From assembly GCA_025963185.1 (NCBI GenBank), contig JAOPVE010000041.1, forward strand, positions 1-33,078: a stretch of DNA of 33,078 nt, read 5' to 3'. Made by a program: the position numbers and the translations under genes. The notes beneath the pieces were generated by a model. It had not been told where the DNA came from. It was given only the letters and a program-made list of their open reading frames with translations, and ran no database searches. The number at the start of each line of letters is the position of its first letter. The first letter of the stretch is position 1. This stretch comes from Actinomycetes bacterium. GTDB lineage: Bacteria > Actinomycetota > Actinomycetes > Mycobacteriales > Cryptosporangiaceae. Of this stretch, positions 7,392 to 12,634 are shown one piece after another.

Positions 7392-7538
7392 TGCTCAGGC
7401 TGCTCGCCCGGACGCCGTTAGCCGAGTTGTGAGGGATGTGACCAGACCTGCCAGGATCAGTAGCCCGGCCGAGCCCGGACCCGTCCGGTGGCCACTGGGC
7501 TGTCCGCCGCTGGCGGGCGCACCCGATCCCGGGCTGAC

Positions 7539-7735
7539 TGAACCGCCCCGGCATGTCCGCGGACTTCATCTCTTGAGGAGGATGAAGTCATGTCACGTCG
7601 TTCTGGGAGCTACCCGCCAGAGTTGCGGGAGCGTGCGGTGCGGATGGTCGAGGACGCCTACTACCGTCACAACCAGCCCGGCATGACCGCGGGCGCCCCA
7701 ACAACCTGAGTCCGCGGACTCACCGGGGCGGTTCA
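7539..7735 (+). mobile_element. 197-bp deletion derivative of an IS3-family element
   Basis: The left end TGAACCGCCCCGG (7539-7551) and the right end CCGGGGCGGTTCA (7723-7735) are exact inverted complements. The match continues inward with GTCCGCGGACT after a 3-base mismatch, giving 24 of 28 matching bases. Ends of TGAACC...GGTTCA are typical of IS3 elements in actinomycetes. Inside is only a 39-codon stub of orfA; the rest of orfA and all of orfB are missing. The flanking triplets (GAC left, GTA right) are not a target duplication. It cannot move itself, but the intact ends could be moved by a transposase elsewhere. Confidence 0.75.
7590..7709 (+). pseudogene. Truncated IS3 transposase OrfA stub
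   Basis: The ATG at 7590 follows a strong GAGGAGG. The first residues, SYPPELRERAVRMVEDAY, match the N-terminus of IS3 OrfA, the start of the DNA-binding HTH. After about 24 codons homology stops, and the frame ends in TGA after 39 codons at the right inverted repeat. This marks an internal deletion that removed the rest of the element. The peptide, if made, lacks a complete HTH. Confidence 0.7.
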
Positions 7736-8007
7736 GTACCGACTCCGATGCTCCCTTGCGCGGTCGGAGATTCCGGCGGGGATCAATAGCCCGCAATACC
7801 GAACCGCGCGCTATTCCGTACGGCGCTCGATGACGTCACAACGTGTCCGAGGAGCCAGCCCCCGGCTTCCCCAGCACGCTCGGGGAACGCCCTGACGGTG
7901 CGGGGGCCGGAGCTGTACCCGAACCAGCTGTCCGACGTCCTTCTCATGGTTGACGCCTGTGTGCAGAATCAGGCGGCGCTGGACGTGCCGACGACGGGGG
8001 TCATGCC
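7736..8007. other. Leader region of the TIR-WD40 gene, possible small ORF
   Basis: No clear gene is present. A rightward frame from GTG 7898 to 8092 (64 codons) begins with RGPELYPNQLSDVLLMVDA, has coding-like codon use and overlaps the TIR start out of frame, but no family is recognised. A hairpin TTCCCC-n9-GGGGAA lies at 7867-7887. GGGGG at about 7996-8000 serves as the ribosome binding site for the TIR gene. Confidence 0.3.
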
Positions 8008-11000
8008 GTGTCCTTCAATGGGTTCATCTCCTACAGCCATGCCGCAGATGGCCGGCTTGCCCCAGCGGTGCAGCGTGGGCTGCACCAGCTAGCGAAGCCC
8101 TGGCATCGACGGCGCGCCTTATGGGTCTTCCGCGACCAGACCGGGCTGGCGGTGACCCCGGGGCTGTGGTCGTCGATCCAGAAGGCCCTGGACGGCTCGG
8201 AGTGGTTCATACTGATGGCCTCACCAGAGGCTGCGCGCTCGCAGTGGGTCAACCGCGAGATCGAGCACTGGGTCGCGATGAAGCCCGCAGATCGCATCCT
8301 TCCAGTGGTGACCGGCGGGGAGTGGCGCTGGGATCCCTCGCGAGGCGACTTCGCGGAGGACTCGACGGCGGTCCCGTCCGCGCTGCGCGGAGTGTTCGCC
8401 GAGGAACCCCTGTTCCTGGATCTGCGCTGGGCGCGCGAGGACCAGCACCTGAGTTTGCGGCACTCGCGCTTCCGGGACGCGGTGGCGCAGCTGGCCGCCC
8501 CGATGCACGGGGTGAGCAAGGACGACCTGGAAGGCGAGGACGTCCGGCAGCACAGGACGGCGCAGCGGTTGCGGGCCGCCGCGGTGACCGCGGTGGTGGT
8601 CCTGGGCCTGATGACGTCTCTGTCCGGGGCCTTCGCCGTGCGCAGCGCAGGCAAGGCGACCGCCGCCGCAGCCGAAGCGCTGCGGCAACAGCGCGTGGCG
8701 GCGAAGCAGAAGGGCAGCGCCGAGCGGTCGGCTGCGGACGCGCGCTGGCAGGAGAAGAACGCGCGCACGCAGGAGAAGCGTGCGAAGGACGCGGGGGCCG
8801 AAGCGCGGCGGCAGGACGAGAACGCGCGCCAGCAGGCCGAGAACGCGCGCAAACAGCAGGCGCTGGCGGATCAGGCGTCCGCACGCGCACGTGAGCAGGA
8901 ACGCCTGGCCCAGCAGCAGCGCGAGCTGGCCAAGCACTCCGCCGCAGACGCGACCCGGCAGAAGCAGGTCGCCGACGGCCAAGAGCGGCTCGCGCAGGAA
9001 GCCTCGGCAGAGGCCGCGCGGCAGAAGGAGCTCGCCCGGGAGCAGCAGCGGCTGGCCGACGAAGCCGCCAAGGACGCCGCGCGGCAGAAGCAGGCCGCCG
9101 AAGAGGAGCGCCGCAAGGCCGACGAGGCCGCCGCCGACGCCCGCCGCCAGCAGGACAACGCCGACCGGCAGCAACGGATCGCGGTCGGCCGTCGCGCGAA
9201 CAACGAGGCGAAGGCGGCGCTCGCGGATGACCCGAAAACTGCCGTCATGCTCAGCACCGCCGCGGCAAAGGTGCAGTCGGACGAAGAAGCGCGCAAGCAC
9301 CTCGCCGGCCTGGTCACCTCGACGCACTACGCGGGCCCACTGGGCCACTTCGTCGACGTGGCGTATCTCGGCAACGACGTGCTGCTCGCGCAGGACAATT
9401 CCCGGCTGCGGCTGTGGAACGTGGCCGACAGGGCGAATCCGTCTCCAGTGGCGGACCTCGGCGGTTACGACCAGTGGACGGCCAGTCCGAACGGACGGAC
9501 GGTCGCCGCTGCGGCCTACAACGGATCCTCGGTGTTTCTGCTGGACGTGACGAAGCCATCGGCCTCCACACCGCTCGCCGAGATCCCGGTCAGTTCGGGG
9601 GTGTCCAGTCTCACGATCAGCCCGGACGGGCGCACTCTGTTCGTGGGCGCCCAGGACTGGAGCGCCAACGACGTGGGCGACCTGTGGGATGTGTCGGACC
9701 TCCGCCGGCCGAAGCCACTCGCCACCCGGTTCGACGGCTCGGCATTCGTGGCCAAGGCCGCATTCAGCTGGGACGGGACCGCCCTGGTGACCCTGGATGA
9801 TGACGCCAAGACAACCGTGTGGAACCTGGCCGATCCCACCAAGCCGGAAAAGGCTGCCGCACTTGATGGCACGGTGTGCAGCGAAGGCGTGAACGCTATG
9901 GCCTTTCTGCCGAGAGCGCCTGAACTCGTCATCGGCTGCAACGACCACACCCTGCTCGTCGATCTGTCGAATCCGGCCGAGCCAACGGGAACCGTGTTGA
10001 TGGCTGACGTGGGCGGCAAGGTCACCTCGCTCCTCGTCAGCGCGGACGGCCGCAGGCTCGCCACCGGCGTCGAGACCGTGGTTAGCCGCGGCATCGAGAG
10101 CGGATTCGCGACCGTGTCGGAGCTGGGCGGCGCCAGCCCCGGCGTGCCGCGCGAGCTTGTCCGCGTGCCGGAGCCCGGAAAGCTGCGGGCCATGGCCCTG
10201 ACCCCGGACGGGCGAACATTGACCACCTCCGATGGGGAGGCGCTCACGAGGCAGTGGAACGTGGACGCCTACGGCGCTCCGGAATCGCGGTCCGCCCTCA
10301 CCAGCGGGGGGCAGCAGGGCCTGGCCACGGCGTTCACCCCGGACGGTCGTTCGATGCTGACTGTCGGCTCGAACCCGCAGGCAGCGGTGTGGGACGTGTC
10401 CCACCCGTCCGCCCCTGTCCGGCGGGCCAGCCCTACCGTTCACGACAAGCCGATCTACCGCGCGGCGTTCACTCCCGACGCGCGCATCCTGGCCACCGCG
10501 GACGCAGACGGCCGGGTAAGGGTCTCGGACATGTCCGATCCGGCTCACCCGGCGACCATTGCGGAGTTCGTTGCGCAGGTCATCGCGCAGGTCGGCTCGG
10601 AGGGCGAGATCGTGATCAGCCCGGACGGCAGGACGATCGCCGCGGGTACGGAGTTCGGTTCTCCCGTGCTGTGGGATGTGACCCGGGCTGGCGCCGTAAC
10701 CCGGCTCCGTCCACTCGGCAACAGCGTCATGCCGATGGCGTTCGGCCCGGACGGCCGGACCGTGGCCATCGCGGACCGGCCCGGTTCGGGGGCCTCGCTG
10801 TGGACCCTGGACGGCGCCGGGGGCCCGACTCGGGTCCGGCCGATCGGCGCCCTGGGCGGTGCATCCGTCGGAACGATTGCCTTCAGTCCGGACGGCGGGA
10901 AAGTAGCCATGGTGGGCTGGGGCACGGGTGGGCTCTGGGACGTGAGCCAGGCCCGCTCCCGCCAAACCGGTGCATTCAGTATCCGCGGGGCTACCGGCTC

Positions 11001-11358
11001 CGCCGAATTCAGCCGCGACGGCCGGACGCTAGCCATCCTGGGCCAGTACAACACGGCCTTGTGGGACGTCGCTGGCGGAGTCGATCCTGTCCAGGTCGGA
11101 GAGATACCACTCGATGCGGATCTGGTCAGTTTCCGGCTCACGGCTACGTTCAGCCCGGACGGGCGGACCCTGGCGACCGGCAAGGCCGACTACACCGGTT
11201 CCGAGGGAATCGCCGCGCTGTGGGATCTCACGAAGCTCGCCGGACTGCGCGCCGATCCCACGCTGCAGGGGTGCGCGATCACGGGCCGCGGCCTGTCGGA
11301 GGACGAGTGGGCCCGCTACATCCCCGAACTCCCGCACCGGAAGACCTGCCCGCACTGA
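8008..11358 (+). CDS. TIR domain - membrane segment - coiled coil - WD40 protein
   Basis: The 1116-residue protein starts at GTG 8008 (GGGGG 7 bases upstream). Residues 1-165 form a TIR domain: FISYSH (6-11), WVFRDQTGL (39-47), and W80-VNRE84, where Glu84 fits the catalytic glutamate of TIR NADases. Residues 190-210 form one hydrophobic helix after a basic stretch. Residues 215-400 are an Ala/Gln/Arg/Glu coiled coil with 21-residue periodicity (ARQKQxA units). After DDPKTAVML near residue 410, WD40 repeats run from 444 to 1105. I count 14 blade-like units, most with a (S/T)PDGRT motif, matching two seven-bladed propellers. The layout after the TIR copies actinomycete nSTAND-WD40 proteins, with TIR replacing the NTPase. 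With basic residues before the helix, TIR inside and propellers outside is likely. A sensor or antiphage role is inference. Confidence 0.8.
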   Translation: MSFNGFISYSHAADGRLAPAVQRGLHQLAKPWHRRRALWVFRDQTGLAVTPGLWSSIQKALDGSEWFILMASPEAARSQWVNREIEHWVAMKPADRILPVVTGGEWRWDPSRGDFAEDSTAVPSALRGVFAEEPLFLDLRWAREDQHLSLRHSRFRDAVAQLAAPMHGVSKDDLEGEDVRQHRTAQRLRAAAVTAVVVLGLMTSLSGAFAVRSAGKATAAAAEALRQQRVAAKQKGSAERSAADARWQEKNARTQEKRAKDAGAEARRQDENARQQAENARKQQALADQASARAREQERLAQQQRELAKHSAADATRQKQVADGQERLAQEASAEAARQKELAREQQRLADEAAKDAARQKQAAEEERRKADEAAADARRQQDNADRQQRIAVGRRANNEAKAALADDPKTAVMLSTAAAKVQSDEEARKHLAGLVTSTHYAGPLGHFVDVAYLGNDVLLAQDNSRLRLWNVADRANPSPVADLGGYDQWTASPNGRTVAAAAYNGSSVFLLDVTKPSASTPLAEIPVSSGVSSLTISPDGRTLFVGAQDWSANDVGDLWDVSDLRRPKPLATRFDGSAFVAKAAFSWDGTALVTLDDDAKTTVWNLADPTKPEKAAALDGTVCSEGVNAMAFLPRAPELVIGCNDHTLLVDLSNPAEPTGTVLMADVGGKVTSLLVSADGRRLATGVETVVSRGIESGFATVSELGGASPGVPRELVRVPEPGKLRAMALTPDGRTLTTSDGEALTRQWNVDAYGAPESRSALTSGGQQGLATAFTPDGRSMLTVGSNPQAAVWDVSHPSAPVRRASPTVHDKPIYRAAFTPDARILATADADGRVRVSDMSDPAHPATIAEFVAQVIAQVGSEGEIVISPDGRTIAAGTEFGSPVLWDVTRAGAVTRLRPLGNSVMPMAFGPDGRTVAIADRPGSGASLWTLDGAGGPTRVRPIGALGGASVGTIAFSPDGGKVAMVGWGTGGLWDVSQARSRQTGAFSIRGATGSAEFSRDGRTLAILGQYNTALWDVAGGVDPVQVGEIPLDADLVSFRLTATFSPDGRTLATGKADYTGSEGIAALWDLTKLAGLRADPTLQGCAITGRGLSEDEWARYIPELPHRKTCPH

Positions 11359-11627
11359 CGTGACGCGCTCCAGACAGCGCAGGCAAGCGACGCAGAGGAC
11401 TGGTAGAACAGGCCATGCCGGGCGCGGCGGCGCCGAGGTAGGCGTTCTGGTGGTCTCCGCGAACACGAGGTCGCGGACCAGGGGATCCTGCTCTCCACGC
11501 CCCAGCGTTGAACACGTCGCGGCGATGTGGCCCGATTCCGCGCGGCGGCGTCTCAGCTAGAGACAAGCATCGCCAGCCCAGCGCCATGCGAACGCTTTTC
11601 GACGCTGCCATGAACTACGCTCCGCGC
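11359..11627. other. Intergenic stretch, promoter of small gene only
   Basis: No gene is supported here on either strand. The right end holds TACGCT (11616-11621), a plausible -10 hexamer placed 6 bases before the ATG of the next gene, as expected for leaderless transcription. No good -35 is visible. Confidence 0.35.
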
Positions 11628-11855
11628 ATGAGCAAGGTCGATGCGCAGCGCGCACTGCGTGAAGCCCGGTACGCGGCTACCCGTCCGTCACCGGGCAGCC
11701 GCGGGCCCGACCCGGCCGACCGGCCCGCTCCCCCGCAAGCGGCGGAGTTGGACAGCCCGAGCGACGGGACGGAGCTGTGCGGACACCGCAGCATGGGCAG
11801 CAAGAGCTGTCGGCGGACCGCCGGACATGAGGAGAAGAGCCACCGATACAAGTGA
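11628..11855 (+). CDS. Conserved small actinomycete protein with CGH...C...GH motif
   Basis: The 75-residue protein has three parts: an N-terminal basic helix (MSKVDAQRALREARYAA), a Pro-rich middle, and a C-terminal CGHRSMGSKSCRRTAGH followed by EKSHRYK. The Cys-His...Cys...His spacing suggests a small metal-binding knuckle. I recall similar small proteins of unknown function in actinomycetes but cannot name a family. Start ATG 11628 is chosen over in-frame ATG 11586 because conserved-looking residues begin there and a -10-like TACGCT lies 6 bases upstream with no ribosome binding site, a leaderless arrangement. Neighbours give no functional clue. Confidence 0.6.
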   Translation: MSKVDAQRALREARYAATRPSPGSRGPDPADRPAPPQAAELDSPSDGTELCGHRSMGSKSCRRTAGHEEKSHRYK

Positions 11856-12047
11856 GCTGACGGCGTATCCGACGGTGGGGCGAGTTGGGCACGGACACCC
11901 GACTCAGCGACGGCACGGGTGCCCCGGACACCACGGACTGCGCGAACGTCCGCGCTGCCTGTGGCGACTCCATCGACCGCGCGGAGTGGTGATGCGTGAA
12001 GAAGTAGACACTCGCCTCGGCTCGGCGAACCGCGCGCGAGTCAACCG
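11856..12047. other. Non-coding stretch between the small gene and the broken regulator
   Basis: I see no gene. The minus frame that carries the P-loop fragment stays open to 11904, but the residues are low-complexity and unlike the family, so this is a junction sequence left after the 3' loss of the regulator. Confidence 0.3.
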
Positions 12048-12634
12048 CTGCCCGTCGGGGAACTGATCAGCGACGGCGTGTCCCCAGTGGACCGCGGCTG
12101 TCGTCTTCCCAGCGCCCGCCGGACCCGGCACCAGCACGACAGCTCCCGGCCGTCCTTCGCCCACGCCGGCCAGCAGGTCACCGAGAGCGGCCAGGACCGC
12201 CGTCCGGTCGGTGAAGCCAGCGACGTCCGGCGGGAGCTGTCGCGGCGGGCGCGGAGCGGGCGCTGTCGCGGCGGGCGCGGAGCGGGCGCCGCACCGGCCA
12301 CACCTGGGAGCGGCCCGGCACACGCCAGCTCACGCATCAGGTCCTGATAGGAGCGCCGCCAGTGCTCGGGGTCGGCCGGGCCCGGCCGCCCGGCGTGCCG
12401 GTCACATGCCCGCACGAACGCCCGGACGAACTCCCGCGAGGGCGGCGACACGCCACTCAGCTTGTCGCTGATCGTCGACCGCGCGAACGCCTCGCCGCCC
12501 TGCCGCATCAGGGCCACCAGGCCGCGGATCGACGGGCCGCCACAGTCCCGCGGCAGCTCGCGCAGCTGGTCGGCGAACCGCGCCAGCGGCGGCGCGGTCG
12601 AGCGCCGCGGCGGAGGCGGCGAGGCTCTGGTCAT
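12048..12634 (-). pseudogene. Broken HTH + NB-ARC (P-loop) regulator
   Basis: Two minus-strand frames form one ancestral gene. The first (from ATG 12634) holds an N-terminal HTH-like region (SIRGLVALMRQ, FARSTISDKLSG, FVRAFVRACDRH). The second holds LPPDVAGFTDR, the P-loop GPAGAGKTT and VADQFPDGQ, the hallmark start of an NB-ARC ATPase in AfsR-like actinomycete regulators. The frames are joined by a perfect 26-bp tandem duplication at 12236-12287. Removing one copy puts both halves in the same frame, so the duplication caused the frameshift. After FPDGQ the usual LYVNLRG is missing and homology ends at about 12048. The gene is therefore also truncated, with no Walker B, ARC or TPR parts. It is almost certainly non-functional. 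Confidence 0.75.
12236..12287. repeat. Perfect 26-bp tandem duplication
   Basis: Two identical units, 12236-12261 and 12262-12287, each begin GCTGTCGCGGCGGGC. Both reading frames of the broken regulator contain the encoded APAPRPPRQ stretch, one from each copy. As 26 is not a multiple of three, the duplication shifts the frame. A perfect match implies a recent event. Confidence 0.9.

Follow-up and report, generated by a model that had tools for sequence, protein, structure and literature searches.

The window, a 33,078-nt stretch of an actinomycete contig (JAOPVE010000041.1, Cryptosporangiaceae), contains at 8008-11358 of the plus strand a GTG-initiated open reading frame that is uninterrupted by stops, and it raises the question of what a TIR domain might do at the head of a protein made up of a membrane helix and WD40 repeats. 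The encoded protein of 1116 aa comprises, in this order, a TIR domain, the helix, a coiled coil of about 165 aa, a neck of helices, a WD40 region with 14 blades, and a tail (Table 1). A Pfam scan of the whole protein found no NTPase family, and the AlphaFold model, computed from a 23-sequence alignment, has a mean pLDDT of 82, the TIR domain and the greater part of the propellers being modeled with confidence. Pfam, hydropathy, AlphaFold, and Foldseek hence agree with the initial annotation, which had read the frame as a TIR protein with one membrane helix, 14 blades, and no NTPase. The modules themselves are known; what is novel is the little-noticed combination that spans the membrane, as well as a stalk that is unique among the relatives sampled. 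Our answer, to which we give about an even chance, is that the protein is a single-pass, receptor-like TIR NADase that carries its propellers outside the cell and would cleave NAD+ upon clustering.

Table 1. Positions of the features discussed, in the window or, for the last entry, in the loci of relatives.
Feature	Position	Strand	Basis
TIR domain, residues 1-176, with the S78-x-W80-x3-E84 motif (candidate NADase active site)	8008..8535	+	AlphaFold, Foldseek, Pfam, invariant residues
Single membrane helix, residues 193-211, preceded by an Arg-rich segment	8584..8640	+	Hydropathy, K+R bias
Coiled-coil stalk insert, 21-residue (63-nt) repeats	8641..9183	+	Helix-neck distance compared with relatives, tandem repeats, model helices
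Helical neck common to relatives, residues about 393-449	9184..9354	+	Alignment, model helices
Two WD40 propellers, 14 blades, residues 450-1073	9355..11226	+	Model strands, Foldseek, Pfam
C-terminal tail with cysteine pair C1089/C1114	11236..11355	+	Present in 46/46 family members
MITE-like IS3-type relic, 56-nt arms, 71% complementary	7537..7737	unassigned	Inverted repeat, sequence reading
Broken HTH-STAND NTPase regulator, frameshifted, ending just after Walker A	11904..12634	-	Weak Pfam matches, two frames
Recurring protein of ~210-290 aa near relatives	L037:12390-13121, L040:6146-7009, L050:1324-1956, L057:12435-13169, L058:7333-7974, L146:9603-10220, L150:7002-7769, L156:5894-6649, L158:8371-9135, and others		

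Regarding the TIR head, the Pfam model TIR_2 matches residues 6-103 with 27.2 bits, just below its curated cut-off of 28, while ThsB_TIR matches with 21.8 bits, above its cut-off of 21.2. Modeled alone, the domain reaches a mean pLDDT of 91 and a pTM of 0.88, and its best solved Foldseek matches are the TIR domains of RUN1, L6, EcThsB, BtTir, SPARTA, and AbTir. The TM-scores of these matches are moderate (about 0.4-0.6), which we count, together with the weak sequence likeness to known TIRs (27 bits), against the reading as an NADase receptor. Glu84, which had been put forward as the candidate catalytic residue, is the glutamate of SQWVNREI (S78-Q-W80-V-N-R-E84). In the alignment, Y9, D43, W80, E84, and W88 are invariant in all 46 family members and S78 is kept in 45; the glutamate was read from its alignment column, a WxxxE regular expression having misplaced it in two relatives and left a third blank. 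When the family was compared by profile with solved structures, its W-x3-E fell on that of PdTIR, BtpA, and BtTir; SARM1 has it as well, shifted by a gap. A list of proven NADases includes several TIRs of bacteria and plants (PMC8494770). The window protein shares its TIR fold and the W-x3-E glutamate with the NADases AbTir, PdTIR, RUN1, and SARM1, but its TIR domain belongs to a distinct subfamily with a longer C-terminal part and continues into a membrane helix and propellers. The invariance of Glu84 and its arrangement, which is that of known TIR NADases, speak for the proposed role, although conservation of a glutamate is by itself no proof of activity; at the level of sequence, the protein probably possesses an NAD+-cutting TIR domain. 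A TIR scaffold without NADase activity, which would assemble and recruit partners as in animal TLR adaptors, could explain why the TIRs of TLR1, MyD88, and TRIF are also found among the fold matches. We consider such a scaffold unlikely: The glutamate and the nearby W, D, and Y are invariant in 46 divergent members, and the profile matches lean toward PdTIR, SARM1, and AbTir, whose NADase activity is known or listed.

Only one hydrophobic stretch of the protein exceeds the threshold (mean Kyte-Doolittle value 2.04). In 46 proteins, the 20 residues before the helix contain on average 5.5 K+R and the 20 residues after it 3.5 (paired P=1e-7; this and the following P values are optimistic because related sequences are not independent), which places the N-terminus inside. 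The two cysteines of the tail, invariant in the family, are spaced by 23-27 in the 22 members measured, and the remaining ectodomain contains no cysteine in 27 of the 46 members, two in 13, and one or three in 6. In small samples of further WD40 proteins, 7/18 with a helix and 0/7 without have the tail pair, a difference that is not significant (P=0.13); the remaining cysteines are less frequent in those with a helix (2.6 vs 8.3 per 1000 residues, P=2e-5). Taken together, the charge bias and the cysteine patterns favor disulphides in an oxidizing space outside the membrane. They support the prediction that the TIR domain is cytoplasmic and the propellers are extracytoplasmic, in line with the topology assigned by the initial annotation.

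The blade count is borne out by the model, in which the propeller region contains 55 strands, corresponding to 14 blades of four strands each, a single strand having gone undetected. In Foldseek, about 650 columns align with double seven-bladed propellers, 1nr0 among them, and many WD40-type and propeller models of Pfam match the C-terminal region. The full model also matches Apaf-1, and the best-known WD40 propellers belong to cytoplasmic proteins; both facts would suit a protein whose helix is no true anchor, or whose C-terminus lies inside, and whose propellers act as Apaf-1-like cytoplasmic sensors. Since the hydrophobic segment is found in essentially all relatives and is accompanied by the charge bias, the invariant cysteine pair, and a cysteine-poor ectodomain, we judge this arrangement to be very improbable and retain the propellers outside as the preferred reading.

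Is this plan a peculiarity of one locus? About 45 relatives share it, and it occurs in 3-6% of the actinomycete genomes sampled: Judged by sequence, it is a family and not a single case, a point that the initial annotation had missed. With residues 1-231 as query, matches were obtained in 8/200 genomes of the order, 12/395 of the class, 15/247 of one large genus of the class, and 4/198 of the phylum, the window's own genome being counted wherever a sample contained it; no relative matched in phage records. Plasmid matches stem from Streptomyces longwoodensis, S. cynarae, Methylorubrum extorquens, Rhizobium, and Sinorhizobium. One relative with the same plan outside the actinomycetes is found in Methylorubrum, and in the Sinorhizobium plasmid protein TPR-like repeats appear by reading to replace the propellers. 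In the full-length relatives examined, a TIR domain is followed by one helix, the neck, the WD40 region, and the tail. On the conjugative plasmid pCMU01 of M. extorquens (L056:4878-10844), two adjoining TIR-membrane-WD40-like genes differ in their TIR types, and the window's own genome carries on the minus strand of another contig (C35, locus L055) a second WD40 fragment with the same cysteine-pair tail that runs off the contig end. The family is widespread and apparently unstudied: Database names are generic ("TIR domain-containing protein"), and no description of TIR-membrane-WD40 proteins was found in the open-access literature searched, which does cover related conflict systems (PMC7159879, PMC8195603).

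The relatives also clarify the origin of the plan, which had been interpreted as that of nSTAND-membrane-WD40 proteins with a TIR domain in the place of the STAND ATPase. This interpretation is corroborated by locus L039, where two nSTAND1-WD40 genes directly precede two TIR-membrane-WD40 genes. In BLASTP, the TIR and nSTAND1 (PF20703) proteins of this locus are 54-57% identical over 709-734 aa (~715 aa); the match begins in the membrane helix or shortly ahead of it and extends to the C-terminal end, while the heads differ. Consequently, heads are exchanged on a common membrane-WD40 chassis. Actinobacterial nSTAND1-membrane-WD40 proteins resemble the window protein from the helix and neck through the WD40 region to the cysteine pair at the C-terminus, whereas the latter has a TIR head of about 190 aa, lacks the nSTAND1 NTPase, and has gained a stalk of about 165 aa. 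Across nine genomes, WD40 proteins of the same layout carry as heads a Ser/Thr kinase, kinase+nSTAND1, nSTAND1, HTH+nSTAND1, or TIR+nSTAND1, and the heads of this chassis are all signaling or conflict modules. The actinobacterial kinase versions (L089, L097, L100), which we take to be PkwA-like, have the putatively cytoplasmic enzyme head, the single helix, and the WD40 ectodomain in common with the window protein, and several of them the tail cysteine pair, but their head is a kinase and not a TIR domain.

Within the family, the oddity of the window copy is its long stalk, which by sequence comparison exceeds that of the relatives by about 165 aa, an oddity that the initial annotation had missed. 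The distance from helix to neck is 181 aa in the window protein and 11-21 aa in 22 relatives. An alignment-free offset of 187, compared with a median of 17 in relatives, matches this result, whereas the 46-member alignment misplaced the stalk (gap of 100-136 in the relatives); the one outlier of the alignment-free check is low-scoring (L152 at 101, score 30), and its near twin L150 lies at 28. The insert consists of 21-residue units of three heptads, with autocorrelation peaks at 21, 28, 42, and 63 and tandem DNA repeats of 21 and 63 nt. AlphaFold places helices at residues 239-311 and 333-404, and the model breaks at 221-242 and 310-335, where pLDDT falls under 50. If continuous and fully helical, the stalk would by inference extend to at most about 24 nm, which is comparable with the thickness of a Gram-positive wall. 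In the neck that follows, A392 and A419 are nearly invariant in the alignment of relatives.

We then asked what the surroundings of the gene may tell about its role. The initial annotation had located it between an IS3 relic and a broken regulator, in accessory DNA typical of defence genes. Both flanking elements are present: Upstream, a 201-bp inverted repeat encloses the start of an IS3-type transposase-like frame, and on the other side HTH_31 and AAA_16/nSTAND_NTPase5 pieces lie in two frames, all below curated cut-offs. The remainder of the claim fares less well, as G+C content (0.703, compared with 0.694-0.718 in the longer flanks) and codon usage resemble those of the neighborhood. The further neighbors, among them GT2 and UDP-sugar enzymes and an arabinose locus, serve mostly sugar metabolism and transport, and PADLOC matched no defence system in ten neighbors. 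A ThsA-type partner was not found either, the neighbors scanned with Pfam containing no SIR2, SLOG, or Macro family; the window copy is an orphan without a conflict-system partner and of host-like composition. The relic and the broken regulator, as well as the absence of a promoter-like match in a scan restricted to the sigma-70 consensus, would be expected of a decaying or unexpressed orphan in a degraded patch. The intact 1116-codon frame, the presence of all invariant residues, and the native codon usage make such decay highly unlikely. Two small elements adjoin the gene. Just before it lies an out-of-frame fragment (about 7890-8006, plus strand; ELYPNQLSDVLLMVDACVQNQ / ELYPNQLSDVLLMVDACVQNQAALDV), by eye faintly caspase-like and maybe the remnant of another gene. 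A small ORF at 11508-11855 (plus strand) ends in CGHRSMGSKSCRRTAGHEEKSHRYK, a possible Cys/His zinc-binding tail; it has no Pfam match and no copy adjoining the relatives.

Around the relatives, conflict genes do occur. In L145, a tandem SLATT_3-SLATT_1 gene (10313-11221, minus strand) overlaps the start of the TIR-membrane-WD40 gene by a few bases, and the two are possibly a signal-effector pair; in L057, a CyanoTRADDas_TM gene (TRADD-N-associated) lies upstream of the TIR gene. These neighbors, those in L039, and the signaling and conflict heads of the chassis count in favor of the receptor-like TIR reading. Moreover, a protein of about 210-290 aa recurs near the TIR-membrane-WD40 genes in 13/42 loci (Table 1). 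Its core reads ETVTRVSTQPL...REALTSLYGLFATTRETLK...ELRPFLSKWHP and is often preceded by N-terminal membrane helices; the members scanned gave no Pfam match above cut-off, and none was found in the window's own, incompletely assembled genome.

In L038, L043, L047, and L052, a MoxR-DUF58-TgpA transglutaminase operon adjoins the TIR-membrane-WD40 gene, and these loci also encode a secreted propeller/fn3-type protein. We rejected this operon as an obligatory partner, since it accompanies only 4/42 loci and is absent from the window. It is nevertheless one of the observations that would agree with a non-defence role, in which a protein of the same topology monitors the envelope or development in a multicellular actinomycete and the TIR domain signals rather than kills; the use of the same chassis by Ser/Thr kinases and the position of the window gene among carbohydrate genes, with native codon usage, point the same way. 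Patchy occurrence, plasmid copies, and conflict-gene neighbors look more like accessory defence than housekeeping, and we regard the sensor role as possible, though doubtful.

For the receptor-like TIR NADase, we envisage the following course: The N-terminal TIR domain would reside in the cytoplasm, one helix would span the membrane, and the coiled-coil stalk would raise the two seven-bladed propellers into or through the cell wall. There, the propellers might bind a ligand or partner, or sense damage. Binding would cluster the receptors so that the TIR domains assemble inside and Glu84 cleaves NAD+, an activity that we assume from TIR enzymes in general. The outcome would be either NAD+ depletion with growth arrest or death, or an ADP-ribose-type signal. 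A role in phage defence is plausible. The bolder proposal of an undescribed class of cell-surface innate immune receptors, TLR-like in plan, in which WD40 propellers outside directly gate a cytoplasmic TIR NADase without an NTPase switch and this member, its sensor raised through the wall on the longer stalk, detects phages or competitors before entry, is one that we put forward as speculative and rather improbable.

Known systems resemble this arrangement in part. The window protein is linked to Thoeris ThsB by the ThsB_TIR match and by EcThsB among the fold matches, yet ThsB pairs with a ThsA effector, for which no counterpart was found in the window. Animal Toll-like receptors likewise combine a repeat ectodomain, one helix, and a cytoplasmic TIR domain; the likeness is one of working principle, without any claim of descent, as the window protein has the reversed N-to-C order with an N-terminal TIR domain and WD40 instead of LRR repeats. 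To our knowledge, work on TIR proteins in bacterial defence has so far dealt mainly with sensors or effectors of the cytoplasm. If our reading is true, a TIR enzyme coupled directly across the membrane to a propeller on the outer side would represent the bacterial equivalent of an immune receptor at the cell surface; as a simple, single-gene system, it would make the activation of a TIR NADase across the membrane testable. The common chassis with its exchangeable heads (TIR, nSTAND1, TIR-nSTAND1, kinase) lends itself to a natural domain-swap experiment.
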